From: Acetobacteroides hydrogenigenes
GTDB lineage: Bacteria > Bacteroidota > Bacteroidia > Bacteroidales > ZOR0009
Direction of reading: 5' to 3'
Assembly (NCBI RefSeq): GCF_004340205.1
Contig: NZ_SLWB01000015.1
Location: forward strand, 1 to 64,000
Length of the DNA stretch: 64,000 bases
Shown here piece after piece: positions 4,504 to 58,777 of the stretch (within the stretch, counting starts at the first letter, position 1; each line of letters opens with the position of its first letter). Both the position numbers and the translations under genes were made by a program. The notes below the pieces were generated by a model, which was given only the letters and a program-made list of their open reading frames with translations, searched no databases and had not been told where the DNA came from.

Positions 4504-4983
4504 TTACTTTTTGGTGTCGTTGTTGTTCGACTTCTTGGCGCGGGGGAAGAACTCGCGGAGCGCGTTGTAGCTGGCCTCGGCACCCGGCACGTCGGAGCGG
4601 CGGAGGTAGTCGAGGTAGCGGTAGAGCACCAGCGCGTCGTTGTAGTTGTCGTAGTCGTGCATCATCTTGGCGCTCTCCAGGCGGCTGGTGATGTTGTTGA
4701 TGATGGTGAGGATGCCCTCGTAGAAGGCGCGCGCCTTGTAGTCGCTCTCGAACTCTACCCAGTTAACCTCCGGCGGGATTTGCGCCGGGTTTACGGTGGT
4801 GATGTCGCGGGCCTTATTCACCAGCAGCTTGTTCTGCTCGTTGACCGAGCCGTACAGACGGCGCTTATCGGCTGGCAGGTCGGGCAGCTTGGTCTTAATG
4901 ATGTTGAAGATTTCGTTGGCAGCGGCCGTAATCTTGGCCTGCTCGTCGGCGGTTAGGCTGAATGAAATAACATTTGAGTCCAT
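4504..4983 (-). CDS. Conserved hypothetical protein, helical, cytoplasmic
   Basis: This is an intact 159-residue protein starting MDSNVISFSLTADEQ. It is predicted all-alpha with no signal peptide, no membrane segment and no obvious catalytic motif. Helical hypothetical proteins of this length and opening are widespread in Bacteroidota, but I cannot assign a function. It has its own terminator and no operon partner. Its GC-rich coding pattern contrasts with the degenerate repeat sequence on both sides, which supports it as a real gene. Bases 4984-5214 upstream contain no other gene. Confidence 0.7.
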   Translation of the reverse strand: MDSNVISFSLTADEQAKITAAANEIFNIIKTKLPDLPADKRRLYGSVNEQNKLLVNKARDITTVNPAQIPPEVNWVEFESDYKARAFYEGILTIINNITSRLESAKMMHDYDNYNDALVLYRYLDYLRRSDVPGAEASYNALREFFPRAKKSNNNDTKK

Positions 4984-33808: not shown

Positions 33809-34456
33809 TTATAATCCGGTTGCAATTAGTTCCAACGGCGAGGTCATAGTCGCATCCACGCTAAACTTTACTGTGTCGGCATAACCTTCCACAAACGAAA
33901 CTTCAAAGCCGTCCTCAAAGAAAATCTCGGAAATTCCAAGGTCTTGGAAAATTGTCCCAGTTACCTTAAATGTGCCGGGCTCTTCAAACATGCGGTTAGC
34001 CTCTTGTACCAGTTCGCTTGGATAGCCGTGGTTCTCCATATCAATTAAAATACCTTGTATCTTAATGGTGTATGGTTTAAGACCGAAGTACTCAATTACC
34101 TCAATCTCGCTACGGTCAATGGCCGTTTTTACCACATTCTTCCCCCTGCTAAACGATACCATAAGTGGTGGCGCCAGAAACTTCTTTCCAACGCCGTATT
34201 CCCCCGGCGTTCCAAACTTGTAAACCCTGCCGCTTTTCGAATTCTCAAATTCTACATTGGCAAAGCTGATATCCCCAACCTCAAAGAGCGGTATTTCTTT
34301 ATTTCCACTACCGGAGTATTCAACATCCGAGTACTGGTGCAGCTTAACCAAGTTCGCCCACACCCTATTGGCAACTACCTTTGCCACATTCCCGGCAACG
34401 TAGCCAAAGCTGTACTGGTAGCGGGCAAGTATGCTGTTAATGCTGATCCTGTTCAT
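33809..34456 (-). CDS. DUF6046-type baseplate/tail protein
   Basis: The 215-residue protein has EIEVIEYFGLKPYTIKIQG and a final FEVSFVEGYADTVKFSVDA segment. Proteins of this type (DUF6046) are found next to the hub protein in Bacteroidota contractile phages and may bridge tube and hub, as gp53/LysM-type proteins do elsewhere. The start ATG lies inside the frameshift extension of the upstream chaperone gene. Confidence 0.55.
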   Translation of the reverse strand: MNRISINSILARYQYSFGYVAGNVAKVVANRVWANLVKLHQYSDVEYSGSGNKEIPLFEVGDISFANVEFENSKSGRVYKFGTPGEYGVGKKFLAPPLMVSFSRGKNVVKTAIDRSEIEVIEYFGLKPYTIKIQGILIDMENHGYPSELVQEANRMFEEPGTFKVTGTIFQDLGISEIFFEDGFEVSFVEGYADTVKFSVDATMTSPLELIATGL

Positions 34457-34667
34457 TTTTGAATTTTGCTCCTAGTAATCCTGTTGCGGCAATCCATTGA
34501 ATCTGCCTATACTTCTCCATCCAAGTCTCGTCATCCAGCCTTTCCGGAAAGGGGATATGCAGATAAAACGATATCAGCGCATTTCCCCTCCGGATAAAGT
34601 TGGCACTCTCTCTAGTGCGGCTATCCTCGTCATCGACGATGTCGATAGTAGGATAGCCTTCTACTAG
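34437..34667 (-). CDS. Tail assembly chaperone, -1 frameshift extension (GT-like)
   Basis: A 76-codon frame opens in the -1 phase exactly at the end of the upstream 118-residue gene. It has no ATG of its own until near its end. It reads LVEGYPTIDIVDDEDSRT, then RRGNALISFYLHIPFPERLD, and ends QDQH-stop, 20 nt inside the next gene. Codon use looks coding and no stop interrupts it. The junction is an A AAA AAC slippery heptamer in the correct phase just before the zero-frame TAG. Phages often make a G and a G-T fusion tail chaperone in this way. Confidence 0.7.
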   Translation of the reverse strand, partial: LVEGYPTIDIVDDEDSRTRESANFIRRGNALISFYLHIPFPERLDDETWMEKYRQIQWIAATGLLGAKFKNEQDQH

Positions 34668-35020
34668 TTTTTTATGATGGCCTTTCTTACAGGGAGAAGC
34701 TGGGTAATGCCATCAAATGCGGCGTAGAATAGCCCATCGTCCGACTTTACTTGCTCCTTCGACGTTAGCAGGCACGAGTTGATTAGTATCTCTTTAGCCT
34801 TGTTAGGGTCACGATCCAACCACTTTTCGAATTCTCCAACGGCTTTTCTTGATGGAACCGTAGCAACTACATCTAAGAATTCGTTGCCATCGTCATCTTT
34901 CGGAAGAGCGATTATCTTTACCTTATCTTCGCCGTACTTTTCTTTCCAAGCGCTCATCATTTCTTCCGTAACGCCTTCAGGTAGTTTCACCTCTTTTGCT
35001 TTATCCTTTTGTTGTGCCAT
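34664..35020 (-). CDS. Tail assembly chaperone G-like protein
   Basis: The 118-residue soluble helical protein begins MAQQKDKAKEVKLPEGVTEE, has IIALPKDDDGNEFLDVVATV and ends PVRKAIIKN-stop. It lies directly after sheath and tube genes, the conserved place of the tail-tape-measure chaperone in contractile and siphophage tails. Its last codons contain the slippery heptamer that leads into the -1 extension. Sequence identity to lambda gpG is not visible; the call rests on position plus the frameshift arrangement. Confidence 0.65.
   Translation of the reverse strand: MAQQKDKAKEVKLPEGVTEEMMSAWKEKYGEDKVKIIALPKDDDGNEFLDVVATVPSRKAVGEFEKWLDRDPNKAKEILINSCLLTSKEQVKSDDGLFYAAFDGITQLLPVRKAIIKN
34667..34673 (-). 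promoter_or_regulatory. -1 ribosomal frameshift slippery heptamer
   Basis: On the minus strand the zero frame reads ATA AAA AAC TAG. A AAA AAC is a canonical X XXY YYZ-class slippery site, immediately followed by the stop codon. Slipping back one base reads AAA AAA CTA GTA and continues 76 codons. Confidence 0.7.
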
Positions 35021-35034
35021 TTTAGAAAGTGCCT

Positions 35035-35451
35035 TTAAATGTTGTTGTAATCGATATCAAGAATAAACAGCGTGTACTGTTTTTTTAAATCCATGTCTCC
35101 GCCTACTTCACGGCCTTGACTCTGGAACTTGGCAAGAATGGTATCGTTAATGATGTCATTATCATCGTTAACGTAGGTAACGTTAATTGGGAATGGCTTA
35201 ATGTTCAGTATCGAACCTCCAGCAGCCTTTTCCATTGCGCTGGCCGATGCAAGCCTAATGGTAATATCTCCTGTGTGAGACACCTTACCCATGCTAAACG
35301 AGGTTTGCCTATTGCTCCCCAACGAGTGGTTTGGTTGGTGCTCCTGCTCGGTGCTGTAGTTAATGCCGGTAACCTCCCAATCAATTCTACCAAATAGTGC
35401 AATCTGAACATCACCGCTATCGTAGGCTTTGCCATTATTCATTATTCTCAT
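35035..35451 (-). CDS. Tail tube protein
   Basis: The 138-residue protein begins two bases after the sheath stop; an alternative ATG is at codon 4. It has beta-rich segments (GDVQIALFGRIDWEVTGINY, KVSHTGDITIRLASASAME) and FPINVTYVNDDND, fitting a tail-tube fold. Tubes follow sheaths directly in contractile phages. Confidence 0.7.
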   Translation of the reverse strand: MRIMNNGKAYDSGDVQIALFGRIDWEVTGINYSTEQEHQPNHSLGSNRQTSFSMGKVSHTGDITIRLASASAMEKAAGGSILNIKPFPINVTYVNDDNDIINDTILAKFQSQGREVGGDMDLKKQYTLFILDIDYNNI

Positions 35452-35453
35452 GG

Positions 35454-36719
35454 CTAGATCGAAGTTTTAAGGTTAATGGTTGCCTTAATCTTATCAATCG
35501 AGGCGGTTGGAACAACGGTAAACGATACCAGCAATTCCTTGTTTCCGCTCAACAGGTTAGAGTTCGGATCAACGGTTGTTGCTCCGTCGGTGATCTCCCC
35601 GGCCTTAGCCATCTTTTCAAATGCCTCGTCGCCGATATTTTCAAAGTACTTTACAACACCTTTTGGAAGTAATCCTGTCTTAGAATCAACGGGAACCTGC
35701 GATTTGATCTTAGGTAGCAGCTTTGCACGAAGCATGCGGCTTGCCTTGTTGATGGTAGCCCCATGTCCAATGGTCGAAATCGACATATAGCCGTTATCGT
35801 CCACCGTTGCAGGTGCACATACGTGATCACCGTTCCATCTAACGCCCGAAACGCCCGTGTAGGTTACGCCAAACACGTAGCCCTTGGTGTCAAAGTCGCC
35901 CAGGTCGGCATCCATCTCAAGCAGCGTCTTGTGGTTCGACAATCCCGCATTTAGCCAAACACCCTTTACGGCATCGCTAATGTTAAGCGTTTCCACCTCG
36001 CCAATGTTCCTATTCACGCTTATGGATGCCTTTGTTCCGAGTAGGGTACCTACATCCGCAAACTTTTGCCCAATGGCATCCTGCGTTGCGGCGTAGTCGT
36101 AATCCTGTCCAACGCAAAGCGTAACATGTGTAGCCTTTAGGATGTCTACACCTACCGTAATACCTCTTAGGTTAAGCGCGGTGGCTCCAGTTGCCGAAAG
36201 CCCTCGACCTTCAAGGAAAATAGACACGGGTCTATCGGTGTTCCAACTCCAATCGTGTAGGGATTGCGCTGGGGCAATAGCCTCACGCACCTTGTCCTCT
36301 ATGCCATCTAGCGCTACAGGTGCGTAACCTGTCGTAGGATTAAATGCTACTCCGATATAAAAGATCGATCCAGCCGATGCCACAATTAACGCCTGCCCGT
36401 ACTCCTCAATCAGATTCTTCATGGTCTTAGCCACTGCGCCAACAACAAAGTATAGCTTAGTGCCTTCAGGTGCCATGCGGTAGAACTCCGAAATGTGGCG
36501 ATGTACCCTCACCTTGTTGGTGCTATCGTAGGCAGCGGTAATACCCATCGCCTCGGCATCTTTCAGCTTGGTGATGCTATAAACCGTTCCGTTTACAACA
36601 CCGGTAACATCACCCGCTGCGGCAACGGCCGGACCGTTAAGCAGCAATCCGCAAATGTTATCGGTAATAGTCGACGATGCTCCTGGTACTCCCTTCGATA
36701 TATCTACTGGTCGTAACAT
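35454..36719 (-). CDS. Contractile tail sheath protein
   Basis: The 421-residue protein has DUF2586-type sheath features: an N-terminal arm (MLRPVDISKGVPGASSTITD), a central domain with RPVSIFLEGRGLSATG, and the C-terminal contraction domain (GYMSISTIGHGATINKASRM, KSQVPVDSKTGLLPKGVV). It drives the contractile tail and therefore makes this a myovirus-type phage. It is followed by the tube gene 2 bp later. Confidence 0.8.
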   Translation of the reverse strand: MLRPVDISKGVPGASSTITDNICGLLLNGPAVAAAGDVTGVVNGTVYSITKLKDAEAMGITAAYDSTNKVRVHRHISEFYRMAPEGTKLYFVVGAVAKTMKNLIEEYGQALIVASAGSIFYIGVAFNPTTGYAPVALDGIEDKVREAIAPAQSLHDWSWNTDRPVSIFLEGRGLSATGATALNLRGITVGVDILKATHVTLCVGQDYDYAATQDAIGQKFADVGTLLGTKASISVNRNIGEVETLNISDAVKGVWLNAGLSNHKTLLEMDADLGDFDTKGYVFGVTYTGVSGVRWNGDHVCAPATVDDNGYMSISTIGHGATINKASRMLRAKLLPKIKSQVPVDSKTGLLPKGVVKYFENIGDEAFEKMAKAGEITDGATTVDPNSNLLSGNKELLVSFTVVPTASIDKIKATINLKTSI

Positions 36720-45120: not shown

Positions 45121-46941
45121 ATGACAGGACAAGCAAAAGTTCAGCTCATTCTCGAACTCAAAAACCGCCTTAACACCGGTCTATCCGAGGCTAAGAAGCG
45201 CCTTAACGGCACCGTCGAGGGCATGAAGGATAAGCTCAACTCCCTTAAGCTATCCCACACCAAGGCCTTTAGCGCCATGACCGACCAAATACCTGGTTTT
45301 GGCAATGCAATGGCTGCTTTGGGTAATCCATACGTTCTCGTCACCGCTGGACTATTAGCGTTAACTGCGGCTGGGGTTAAGGCCTCTAAATGGTCTAACG
45401 AGTGGGCTACCAATATGGCTAAGGCCAATGTTACCGCGCAGCTAGCACCTCCTCAGCTGCAACAATTGTCCGATCAACTAGTCAAAATTGGTACCCGCAA
45501 TGTCGGCCCACTAGAGCAGGTCCCAGAAGCATTCAACCGTATCATTTCTGCAGGTCTCGACGTTAACACCTCGCTTGCCGTTTTGGAGCCAACGCTAAGG
45601 GCTTCTAAGGCGGGTTTTGCCGATCTCGAAACTGTAGCCGCTGCTGGCGTTGGCGTAATGGCATCATCCGGCGAAAATATCAACCGTGTTTATGATATTC
45701 TATTCGCCACCTTAAATAAGGGTAATGCCGAGTTTAAAGATATAGCACAGTATCTACCTAAAATAGTCCCATTGGCACGTGGTGCTGGTTTTGCTCTCGA
45801 CGAAACTGCCGCAGCATGGGCTTTCCTTACTGCACAGGGCCAAAAAGCCGAGCAAGCCACAACGGGCATAATGAACATGGTAAAGGCATTTTCTAATGTC
45901 GACACCATAAAAGGGCTTAAGGGTGCAGGTATCGATGTATTCGACGCAAAAGGCAAGGTAAAGCCAATTCTCGACATCGTAACGATGCTGCAGAGTAAAA
46001 TGGGTAAGCTATCCGACAAGGGCAAAGCTAACTTCCTCGATGCAATCGGGCTTAAGGACATGGAGGCTAAAGGCGCTATCCTCGCAATGGTGCAGGATGT
46101 TACTAAGTTAAAAGGTATCACCGACGCAACCGTTCTCTCCCAGGGAGCATTAAATACCGCCTACGAAAATGCAAGAGCACCACTCGACGATTGGGCTATA
46201 ATAATGAATAGCATTAAAGGCAATTTTATTAAACCTTTTGGAGACTTCTTCCTAAACGTATTTAGCAAATTAGGTACATGGATACTTAATGCATCCAAGG
46301 CTACTAAGGAATGGTATCGCAATTCCATGCTACTACAAGATGCTCTTAGCGGAATTGGGTTTGTGCTTAAATGGGTTATCGTTAAGCCCCTCGAAGGTTT
46401 GTGGTGGGTGATTAAAAAGCTATGGCAAGGACTATCATGGGTTTTAGGTCAGATTGGTAATGGTTTTGAGTGGCTATATAGAACAATTAAACCAGTATTT
46501 ATATGGCTAGATGAAGCGCTTATGAGTATCTGGAATATTATCAAGGCTATATTCACTGGCGATTTTAGCGGGGCATGGAAGGCTATTAAGAATTTCCACG
46601 TCCCTTCTATATCAGATATTCGCAAGAGAATGGAGTCCGATTTTGAGGCAAAAAATAAAGCCCAAAAAAATGAGAATAATCCTTTTTCAACCGAAACAAA
46701 GATCCCTAGTTTAGAAGATCCCGACAAAAGTAACAACGGGTTAGGCGACGGCGGTATTTCCAAAATCACCGACAGCGGTCAAGCCCCCCGTAACATTACC
46801 ATCAACATCGATTCCTTTATTAAAGGAGGCCTCAATGTAAGCAACACCAACATGCAAAACATGAGTCTCCGCCAAATCGAAGAAACGGTAAAAGACATGT
46901 TCCTCCGCGTCATCGCCAATGTCGAAACCGGATACCAATAA
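45121..46941 (+). CDS. Tail tape measure protein
   Basis: The 606-residue protein has a helical N-terminus (LILELKNRLNTGLSEAKKRL), hydrophobic segments (YVLVTAGLLALTAAG) and the TP901-type core (QVPEAFNRIISAGLDVNTSL, ETAAAWAFLTAQGQKAEQAT, YENARAPLDDWAIIMNSIKG). A second hydrophobic/aromatic region (about 405-470) precedes a disordered end. It sets tail length. It is unusual in lying on the opposite strand from the tube, sheath and tail chaperone. Confidence 0.85.
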   Translation: MTGQAKVQLILELKNRLNTGLSEAKKRLNGTVEGMKDKLNSLKLSHTKAFSAMTDQIPGFGNAMAALGNPYVLVTAGLLALTAAGVKASKWSNEWATNMAKANVTAQLAPPQLQQLSDQLVKIGTRNVGPLEQVPEAFNRIISAGLDVNTSLAVLEPTLRASKAGFADLETVAAAGVGVMASSGENINRVYDILFATLNKGNAEFKDIAQYLPKIVPLARGAGFALDETAAAWAFLTAQGQKAEQATTGIMNMVKAFSNVDTIKGLKGAGIDVFDAKGKVKPILDIVTMLQSKMGKLSDKGKANFLDAIGLKDMEAKGAILAMVQDVTKLKGITDATVLSQGALNTAYENARAPLDDWAIIMNSIKGNFIKPFGDFFLNVFSKLGTWILNASKATKEWYRNSMLLQDALSGIGFVLKWVIVKPLEGLWWVIKKLWQGLSWVLGQIGNGFEWLYRTIKPVFIWLDEALMSIWNIIKAIFTGDFSGAWKAIKNFHVPSISDIRKRMESDFEAKNKAQKNENNPFSTETKIPSLEDPDKSNNGLGDGGISKITDSGQAPRNITINIDSFIKGGLNVSNTNMQNMSLRQIEETVKDMFLRVIANVETGYQ

Positions 46942-56746: not shown

Positions 56747-58777
56747 TTATAATTCATCTAATGCTTTGCTGGAGTTGTACTCGCCATCAAACTGGCTAAT
56801 AAGCTCCTCAATGTTGTCAAATCCCTCAAAGGCGGGTTGTGGAGTAGGGATAACCTCCGGCGTAAAATCTTCATCAACGGCATCCGTGTTAAGAATGCTC
56901 ACCTTGGCAAGTTTCTGCTTGCCATCCTTCGTAATCTTATCAAAGCGGGCAATGTAGTGTTGCTGCTTTTCAAACACCTCTTTATCCTTATCTGTCCACT
57001 CGGCACGTGCCGTACTGAACTTCTCAATCTTTGTAGCCTTACAGATATATGATTCGTTTTGGTATAGGTAAACCTCATCAATGGCACCGGTAGTGGTCGG
57101 TATGTAGTAGGCCTCTACCTTGTAGTTGTTTGGTGCCAGTTTTGCCAGTACGTTAGGGTTGGGCAGCTGGTACTTGTTGTACATCACCTGCACGTACTGC
57201 GATCTTCTAACCGATGTTTCCGTAACTTCCCCTATGTATTTTGATAGAAGAGCAGGCTCGTAGCTTGCACAGTTGGGGTTTGGATTAGCCAAGAAAACAT
57301 CCAATCGGCTCATACCCGGATATTTCTTCTGGTCCCTATGCTTGCCGTTGTTATATGCCTCAATAGCGGCCAAATCATCGGCAACAATCTGCTCAAAGGT
57401 GTAGTACTTCTCCACTACCTGCATGCCTTCGTCGTTCCACACCTTATGCTCCTTGGTATTGTTCACCTCAAGCTTAGCGTAGTGTCTACCAACACCCTCG
57501 CGGTAGCGCTTCTCGTAGCCATATTTCAGCTCGCGGTTGGCCGTTTCAGCATATTTTTCTTGAGAGTTTCCCGGATTACACCAGCGCACGTACTTAAACA
57601 CTTCGCCCGCTTTTAAAAGGTCATCCTTAAACTTGTTGGCAAGGTGATTTTCAACCTCCACTTCCAAAGGCATGCCCAAATCATTTGCATTAAGAAACCT
57701 GAACATGTCTCGCATACATTCAACAAACAGGCTCTTATCCTTGCTTTGCGAGTAGGCTTTACCAATCAGCGCACCGCTCTTAATATCGTAGGCGTAGTAC
57801 GCCTTTACAGCAACTCCGTTAGGCATTTTCCGCAAATCGCGGTCATCCATCGAAATCTTGCTAAGCGAGTACTCAACATTGGTAATACGGTGCACGTGGG
57901 GGCGGTGAGCGCTGTTGTACTTATGCTGGCTCATCCTTACCCGGTCAAGTATGGCCAAGTTGTGCGGATCGTTAATGTAGTTCCACACCGTAGCCTTACT
58001 AATCGTAATCGGAGCCCCCGTTTTCTTGTCAAAGAAGTCGGTCCTGTTAAATATTTCGCCCGTCTCACAGTCCACAATGTCAATACCACCACCAACAAAC
58101 TGCAGGTATATATCCTGAATGGTCGTGTTGAAAGGCTTGTTGGGCATAGCAGCGATGCTAAGGAGAAGCCGCTTCATATCGTCGGTTACCTTGCGGCGGT
58201 TGGAATTTTTAAACCCTTTGTGAATTAGGGTCTCGTAACCTTCAGAAAGATATGAGGCGTACTTCTCCTTTAGCCTCGTCTGATTTTCGGGCAGTGTAAC
58301 AAGGGCGTTTCCCTCTTTAATTTCCTTAACATCTACAACTATTTGCTCCCACATTCTTGTGGTGCTTATTTGTCTGGATTTTCTCCATGCCGTTCTAGAC
58401 TTTATAACCTCATGAATAGCATTCAGCACCTCAGCATTCGCGCAGTACTCCTTTACATTCTCATCTGGAAGATATCTGTCATCATCAATCAGATAGCCCG
58501 TAAAGTACTCCAACGCCTTAGCATCAGGCACAATTCTCGCCTTAACCGTATTTGTCTGCACCCGCTTCCTAGGATCACCAATCGCGGAAATAATCACCCT
58601 CTGTCGGCTAACCTTAAGCGAGTTAAAATCAATAAGCACCCTATTCTCAGCACCACCACCACGATTAATGGTTCTCAGCTTACCCCTCTTTCGATCATTT
58701 TTATAATCATCGTAAGAAAGGCCAGCAGCATCCCACTCTTCAAGTGTAATAGTTACTATGTTAGGCATGCCCGTCAT
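56747..58777 (-). CDS. Mu-type DDE transposase
   Basis: The 676-residue protein has an N-terminal DNA-binding region (LEEWDAAGLSYDDYKNDRKR), a middle bind region and an integrase-like core. The core has YAYDIKSGALIGKAYSQSKD (first acidic residue), VEVENHLANKFKD, then RWCNPGNSQEKYAETANREL with the final Glu. The Mu C-terminal beta-barrel follows (SVRRSQYVQVMYNKY). The second catalytic position seems to be Glu (EVEN) instead of Asp, as far as I can align by eye. It cuts and joins the phage ends at 23503 and 60122. Confidence 0.85.
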   Translation of the reverse strand: MTGMPNIVTITLEEWDAAGLSYDDYKNDRKRGKLRTINRGGGAENRVLIDFNSLKVSRQRVIISAIGDPRKRVQTNTVKARIVPDAKALEYFTGYLIDDDRYLPDENVKEYCANAEVLNAIHEVIKSRTAWRKSRQISTTRMWEQIVVDVKEIKEGNALVTLPENQTRLKEKYASYLSEGYETLIHKGFKNSNRRKVTDDMKRLLLSIAAMPNKPFNTTIQDIYLQFVGGGIDIVDCETGEIFNRTDFFDKKTGAPITISKATVWNYINDPHNLAILDRVRMSQHKYNSAHRPHVHRITNVEYSLSKISMDDRDLRKMPNGVAVKAYYAYDIKSGALIGKAYSQSKDKSLFVECMRDMFRFLNANDLGMPLEVEVENHLANKFKDDLLKAGEVFKYVRWCNPGNSQEKYAETANRELKYGYEKRYREGVGRHYAKLEVNNTKEHKVWNDEGMQVVEKYYTFEQIVADDLAAIEAYNNGKHRDQKKYPGMSRLDVFLANPNPNCASYEPALLSKYIGEVTETSVRRSQYVQVMYNKYQLPNPNVLAKLAPNNYKVEAYYIPTTTGAIDEVYLYQNESYICKATKIEKFSTARAEWTDKDKEVFEKQQHYIARFDKITKDGKQKLAKVSILNTDAVDEDFTPEVIPTPQPAFEGFDNIEELISQFDGEYNSSKALDEL

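Follow-up and report, generated by a model that had tools for sequence, protein, structure and literature searches.

Evidence for a programmed −1 frameshift in a predicted tail assembly chaperone gene of a Mu-like element from Acetobacteroides hydrogenigenes

The window, a 64,000-nucleotide stretch of Acetobacteroides hydrogenigenes (RefSeq assembly GCF_004340205.1, contig NZ_SLWB01000015.1, positions 1 to 64,000), holds a Mu-like transposable prophage with a contractile-tail operon on the minus strand. In this operon the genes for the sheath and a tube-like protein are followed by a small gene, here called G, by a DUF6046 gene and then by more baseplate genes (Table 1). G lies right after the tube-like gene and ends in ATA AAA AAC TAG, where A AAA AAC has the X XXY YYZ phase of a slippery heptamer. 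The −1 frame is open from 34712 (upstream stop TGA at 34715–34713) to a TAA at 34439–34437. It offers 76 codons after a slip, and its stop lies 20 nt within the next open reading frame (ORF), which starts at 34456. No ATG, GTG or TTG occurs in the open −1 frame until an ATG at 34520, deep in the extension (the T part). The original prediction had claimed an in-phase A AAA AAC before the TAG of G, a −1 frame open for 76 further codons and ending 20 bp inside the next gene, and an extension without its own start; the coordinates bear these out. We consider it very probable that G encodes a tail assembly chaperone and that a −1 slip on A AAA AAC gives a minor G-T fusion. Direct support comes from the conserved −1 extension, the selection on it, the scarcity of starts, a slip site that is both conserved and replaceable, and a predicted chaperone-like fold.

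The sequence AAAAAAC occurs 23 times in the window, both strands counted, so the heptamer by itself is weak proof, and a single open frame in one gene is likewise weak. Taken alone, the extension could be a chance open frame, or a frame mutation could have disrupted the chaperone gene. Searches for relatives used G and, separately, the T part as queries, giving 6, 24, 30 and 51 loci plus two phage records. The plus strand of 114 loci (numbered with the prefix L) was scanned; L007, a short locus from the window's own genome in the other orientation, gave no match, and the 113 others collapsed to 87 distinct G-to-T cores, equal to 80 clusters at 95% nucleotide identity. A later G search of 60 further genomes returned seven matches in six genomes, the window's own included. 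Of the six other matches one (L117) is identical to L017, and the remaining five are new loci (L118–L122). The T homologue lies in the −1 frame relative to G in 86 of the 87 distinct loci and in all five new ones. In all 30 loci of the T-only search, T is preceded by a G homologue and lies in the −1 frame of that homologue. The first T profile was built from eight extension sequences; its own members scored E-values as low as 5.5e-41, and all remaining extensions came out at 4.5e-7 or below.

The extension is under purifying selection. Past the zero-frame stop, the pooled ratio of nonsynonymous to synonymous rates (dN/dS, omega) in the −1 frame is 0.177, and each of the 24 disjoint pairs has a ratio below 1. 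The pairs were chosen for at least 60% identity, a synonymous difference (pS) of up to 0.70 and at least five differences, a choice that lowers omega. An earlier estimate over 83 pairs chosen by pS alone, with distant pairs mixed in, had a median of 0.56 and a maximum of 1.87, with 36 values below 0.5. The other two frames across the extension are free of stops in just 0 and 2 of the 86 loci. The comparative data, with an arrangement kept almost throughout and selection on the −1 frame, already contradict a chance frame or a broken gene, and we give that explanation next to no credence.

An extension under selection could also be an independent gene, translated by coupling or by reinitiation at a non-ATG codon. 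GenBank does hold part of the extension of Flavobacterium phage fF4 (L008, 6357–6500) as a separate 144-nt hypothetical ORF (QHJ72924.1), which is a truncated piece of it, and a possible start precedes the conserved T core in the open −1 frame of 8 of 86 loci. The sole ATG among these eight lies 58 nt before the G stop of L103; if starts are counted only from 40 nt before that stop, they number 4 of 86, none of them ATG. These loci count against a frameshift. In the other 78 of 86 there is no ATG, GTG or TTG in the entire open −1 frame up to the core, and coupling needs no shifty heptamer. An independent gene is in our view highly improbable.

The frameshift reading predicts a site at the end of G. 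In 81 of the 87 loci one of the common heptamers lies in phase within the final 21 nt of the gene (A AAA AAC in 42, A AAA AAG in 22, G GGA AAG in 16 and A AAA AAA in 1). Where a −1 extension is present (86 loci), shifty heptamers in phase occupy 81 of 430 positions in these 21 nt and 34 of 9635 elsewhere in G; sheath-like ORFs from 80 of the loci have 23 in 33403 codons. The enrichment is far beyond chance. A quick tree built from 75 G proteins implies no fewer than 11 changes in the type of heptamer and no fewer than 6 in its place; the tree has few columns (the last ones left out) and many open forks, and 'other' is counted as a heptamer type. In 13 loci G GGA AAG stands three codons upstream of the usual place.

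Transcriptional slippage, in which RNA polymerase inserts or skips an A while copying the A run and the resulting mix of mRNAs yields the fusion, would also exploit such a site. An A6 run lies at 34673–34668, and a run of six or seven stands there in 65 of 86 loci. Runs of six are short for transcriptional slippage. Poly-A tracts are known sites of the process, as with the A11 of Citrobacter rodentium tssM1 described in PMC4256274. The X XXY YYZ phase rule constitutes a codon-level constraint, and 17 of 86 loci, among them 15 of the 16 with G GGA AAG, lack any homopolymer longer than three around the end of G and still keep the −1 extension. Because of these 17 loci we regard transcriptional slippage as very unlikely.

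Two kinds of stimulator were considered for a ribosomal slip. Shine–Dalgarno-like 4-mers stand 5–20 nt ahead of the heptamer in 17 of 80 loci, and a control region 120 nt further up has them in 3 of 80; this candidate was set aside. Downstream, the window's 65 nt after the heptamer (34666–34602) have a minimum free energy (MFE) of −29 kcal/mol with a z-score of −5.9, none of 200 shuffles being as stable, and the predicted hairpin stem begins 8 nt past the heptamer. Scores were obtained for 80 or 81 of the 86 loci. Over 80 loci, z is below −2 in 26 downstream windows versus 3 and 7 in two control windows. By slip site, z is −2 or lower in 24 of 42 loci with A AAA AAC, 4 of 22 with A AAA AAG, 0 of 16 with G GGA AAG and 0 of 1 with A AAA AAA. 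For covariation, 30 of the 42 A AAA AAC loci were aligned, picked because they fit without gaps. The window structure scores 0.232, versus at most 0.137 when partners are slid by 1–3 columns, and 0 of 500 shuffles reach its score; column pairs such as 15–56 and 17–54 show changes of type on both sides. A run of at least six pairs is present in the main stem of 15 of the 30 loci versus at most 3 for slid partners. Some other loci (L019, L021, L024, L050, L054 and L082) have different hairpins in this region.

Other results weigh against the hairpin. The structure tested for covariation was derived from one of the aligned sequences, the 11 double-change pairs are not unusual (110 of 500 shuffles reach that number), and RNAalifold finds no consensus structure on the alignment. 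The other 15 of the 30 aligned loci have no six-pair run in the main stem, and excess stability is lacking in 18 of the 42 loci with A AAA AAC. The association of hairpin and heptamer is confounded with ancestry, as A AAA AAC versus the rest changes only five times on the quick tree. We keep the hairpin as a probable slip stimulator because of its single-sequence stability, the association with A AAA AAC and the covariation of the named pairs.

The predicted structure of G gives independent support to the chaperone assignment. Window G matches phrog_19076, a family of unknown function (E 9.3e-10), as do 74 of the 75 aligned G members; searches of PHROGs and Pfam with G matched no named chaperone family, and single members give weak Pfam matches, the best being DUF6848 at 3.3e-5 in 2 of 75. 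The alignments used for structural work have 75 rows. The G model has a predicted local distance difference test (pLDDT) score of 88. Foldseek pairs it with 3fgx (E 3.5e-4) and with the tail assembly chaperone of HK97 (2ob9_B, E 0.044, probability 1.00). VIA-align ranks 3fgx (Z 9.3), 2ob9 (Z 6.3) and 3klu (Z 5.6), the chaperone YqbN, above a next row at 3.9. The alignment with 2ob9 covers 80 residues with a root-mean-square deviation of 3.4 and 16% identity. The best fold match, 3fgx, is itself uncharacterised; a sequence profile of the 75 G proteins finds it at E 0.002. The predicted G fold is chaperone-like and resembles the HK97 tail assembly chaperone. The T part is modelled as helical (pLDDT 81). 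No PHROG match to it passes E 0.001 (a single member of the 75 reaches 0.0069), and sequence searches of the T part or its members against the PDB gave nothing useful.

Gene order gives further support. The original prediction had argued for a G/G-T chaperone pair from the sheath, tube, chaperone order, and this gains from the fold likeness and from a sister clade. In L114 the tape measure gene follows the extension on the same strand, and in the L114 clade together with the similar L009 all 10 loci scanned have, behind the extension, a large ORF that matches one or more tape measure PHROGs (L060, where the contig ends, and L033, where the next ORF has 271 amino acids, were left out); for L113 the two best matches of the large ORF are other families. 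Since the tape measure gene lies behind the extension in this sister clade, the G-T pair is tied to the classical chaperone position and the layout in the window is a variation on it. A PF10145 match is present in 23 of 26 viral records, and 22 of these 23 carry it on the other strand from G. Under the tape measure rule, tail length amounts to about 1.5 Å per residue. The fF4 tape measure gene has 666 codons, which fits the tail of about 95 nm given for this phage; some fF4 relatives are described as having the gene more toward the right end (PMC7761591).

Several further points weigh against a frameshifted chaperone. The tape measure gene of the window is not adjacent to G; a tape measure gene right behind the chaperone is usual for the lambda kind but does not define it. 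The 2ob9 match (Z 6.3, Foldseek E 0.044) is middling, and fold searches with the T part gave no significant match. In L033 it is the other alternative frame that carries the T homologue. The four common heptamers are absent from 9 of the 92 distinct loci: the overlap of L027, L051 and L052 contains only C CCT TTG or C CCT TTT, the usual place is taken by G GAA AAG in L106 and L107, and no heptamer is present in L033, L119, L120 or L121. Of the new loci, L118 (A AAA AAG) and L122 (A AAA AAA) have one. The original prediction had called for a comparison of heptamer and −1 frame in homologues, and the outcomes it named as refuting are rare (−1 frame changed in 1 of 87, a start before the core in 8 of 86, the common heptamer missing in 6 of 87 and 3 of 5). 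With the −1 frame in 86 of 87 and 5 of 5 loci and the common heptamer in 81 of 87 and 2 of 5, the frame is better conserved than the exact slip letters.

The loci L119, L120 and L033 form a subgroup in which GTA AAG or GTA AAC replaces A AAA AAG at the end of G, leaving no canonical heptamer. L119 and L120 keep the −1 extension despite this, and a single-tRNA slip on A AAG or A AAC is possible there. L033 also has a second G-like ORF (4545–4898), 1.5 kb behind the G with the unusual frame, in which no T extension was detected.

We propose the following course, in which the occurrence and rate of slippage, the partners named for G and T and the hairpin's effect are inferred. The majority of ribosomes would halt at the TAG and release G, of 118 amino acids. 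In a minority, the two tRNAs on A AAA AAC would re-pair in tandem one base back, and translation in the −1 frame would give a G-T fusion of 194 amino acids. By analogy with lambda, numerous G copies would attach to the tape measure protein, with the T part of the scarce fusion molecules recruiting the tail tube subunit. A chaperone of the lambda kind would need both forms for its tails, and neither form would be part of the virion. The slip rate would fix the G to GT ratio needed in tail assembly, and in this branch of phages the hairpin 8 nt past the heptamer probably raises that rate. In tandem slippage the slip usually comes after decoding of the second codon, here AAC. The expected junction then reads ...IIKNLVEG..., a zero-frame Asn followed by a −1 Leu, and the predicted tryptic peptide that spans it is NLVEGYPTIDIVDDEDSR. 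The original prediction had given KKLVEG as the fusion peptide; this would be a minor product if the slip follows AAC decoding. It also made no mention of the probable 3' hairpin or of the few relatives without a canonical heptamer.

The surrounding genes place G in a Mu-like, Winoviridae-like element (Table 1). The Mu-like set in the window comprises phrog_310, phrog_296 (a B-like ATPase), PF06074 (Mu portal), PF04233 (MuF) and PF10758, and the presence of the transposase gene shows that the element is a transposable prophage. Its probable extent, about 23618–58979, comes from the position of G in a 35,362-bp IMG/VR contig with a 100% identical G. The tube-like protein has its top match in phrog_9206, annotated as a major head protein (E 5.4e-12); we infer its tube identity partly from position. 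A MuF-like minor head protein (PF04233, 43844–45025, plus strand) matches CdiA_C (PF18451) in its C-terminal part at E 3.4e-6 and 27.6 bits, versus a cut-off of 26.6, and is possibly a head-borne polymorphic toxin.

Table 1 Features of the frameshift locus and of the surrounding element in the window.
Feature	Coordinates	Strand	Evidence
G, zero-frame ORF of the predicted tail assembly chaperone, 118 aa (amino acids), stop TAG	34664..35020	−	phrog_19076 match, predicted fold
Slippery heptamer A AAA AAC, in phase, abutting the TAG	34667..34673	−	sequence; common heptamer in 81/87 loci
Extension in the −1 frame (T part): 76 codons and a TAA, giving a 194-aa fusion	34437..34667	−	−1 homologue in 86/87, dN/dS
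Predicted stimulatory hairpin 3' of the slip site, with two stacked stems, 8 nt past the heptamer	34619..34658	−	MFE, covariation
DUF6046 / baseplate hub-like gene, start overlapping the extension by 20 nt	33809..34456	−	PHROG and Pfam scans
Tail tube-like protein, immediately upstream of G	35035..35451	−	phrog_4579 tail protein E 3.9e-9
Tail sheath	35454..36719	−	phrog_907 tail sheath E 2.9e-19; PF10758
Tape measure protein, 606 aa, opposite strand, ~10 kb off	45121..46941	+	PF10145 E 3.5e-31; phrog_991 E 4.5e-34
Mu-type transposase	56747..58777	−	phrog_310 transposase E 6.2e-51

Comparison with known systems can be summarised as follows. (i) The slip heptamer of lambda is G GGA AAG, and this sequence is present in 16 of 87 relatives of window G. 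The window differs from lambda in its A AAA AAC site with a strong 3' hairpin, in a tape measure gene on the other strand and in a G that matches no named PHROG or Pfam chaperone family; the lambda G/G-T tail assembly chaperone frameshift is reviewed in PMC5009743. (ii) The predicted G fold aligns with the HK97 chaperone 2ob9, but at 16% identity. HK97 is a siphophage, whereas the element in the window bears a contractile sheath gene. (iii) Mu is likewise a transposable phage with a frameshifted tail gene; its tail chaperone frameshift is described as −2 (PMC5009743), whereas the slip in the window would be −1 at a canonical heptamer. (iv) Flavobacterium phage fF4 has G with a −1 extension (at G GGA AAG) and, like the window, a tape measure gene on the opposite strand.

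The word 'frameshift' has no occurrence in the main texts on fF4 and Winoviridae (PMC7761591, PMC8776804), and among the matches listed in open-access searches, PMC10367356, PMC8008677, PMC7761591 and PMC8776804 included, no account of such a frameshift turned up for Winoviridae, for Hankyphage-like phages or for other Mu-like phages of Bacteroidota. The mechanism itself is textbook, as in lambda G/GT; as far as our searches reach, within the open-access literature covered, the PHROG 19076 family is an undescribed member. A function is proposed for phrog_19076, listed as unknown, and its missing second half is added, a half that escapes PHROG matching and that GenBank truncates in fF4. The G family is found in Bacteroidota phages and prophages, one of them from human faeces. 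Bacteroidota are described as seldom using Shine–Dalgarno sequences (PMC8710568).

Tentatively, and with the balance tipping slightly against it, we suggest a trade-off between the strength of the slip site and the 3' hairpin. In many lineages with A AAA AAC a hairpin, covarying or formed anew independently, would lie some 8 nt downstream, and lineages with G GGA AAG would have none, so that the G to GT ratio would be held while the parts swap. As a separate part of this suggestion, the chaperone would act in trans, its tape measure protein coming from the opposite-strand operon, and the usual coupling of their synthesis would have been given up. The repeated swaps of slip site and hairpin would provide a natural experiment on the selection that holds a frameshift ratio.
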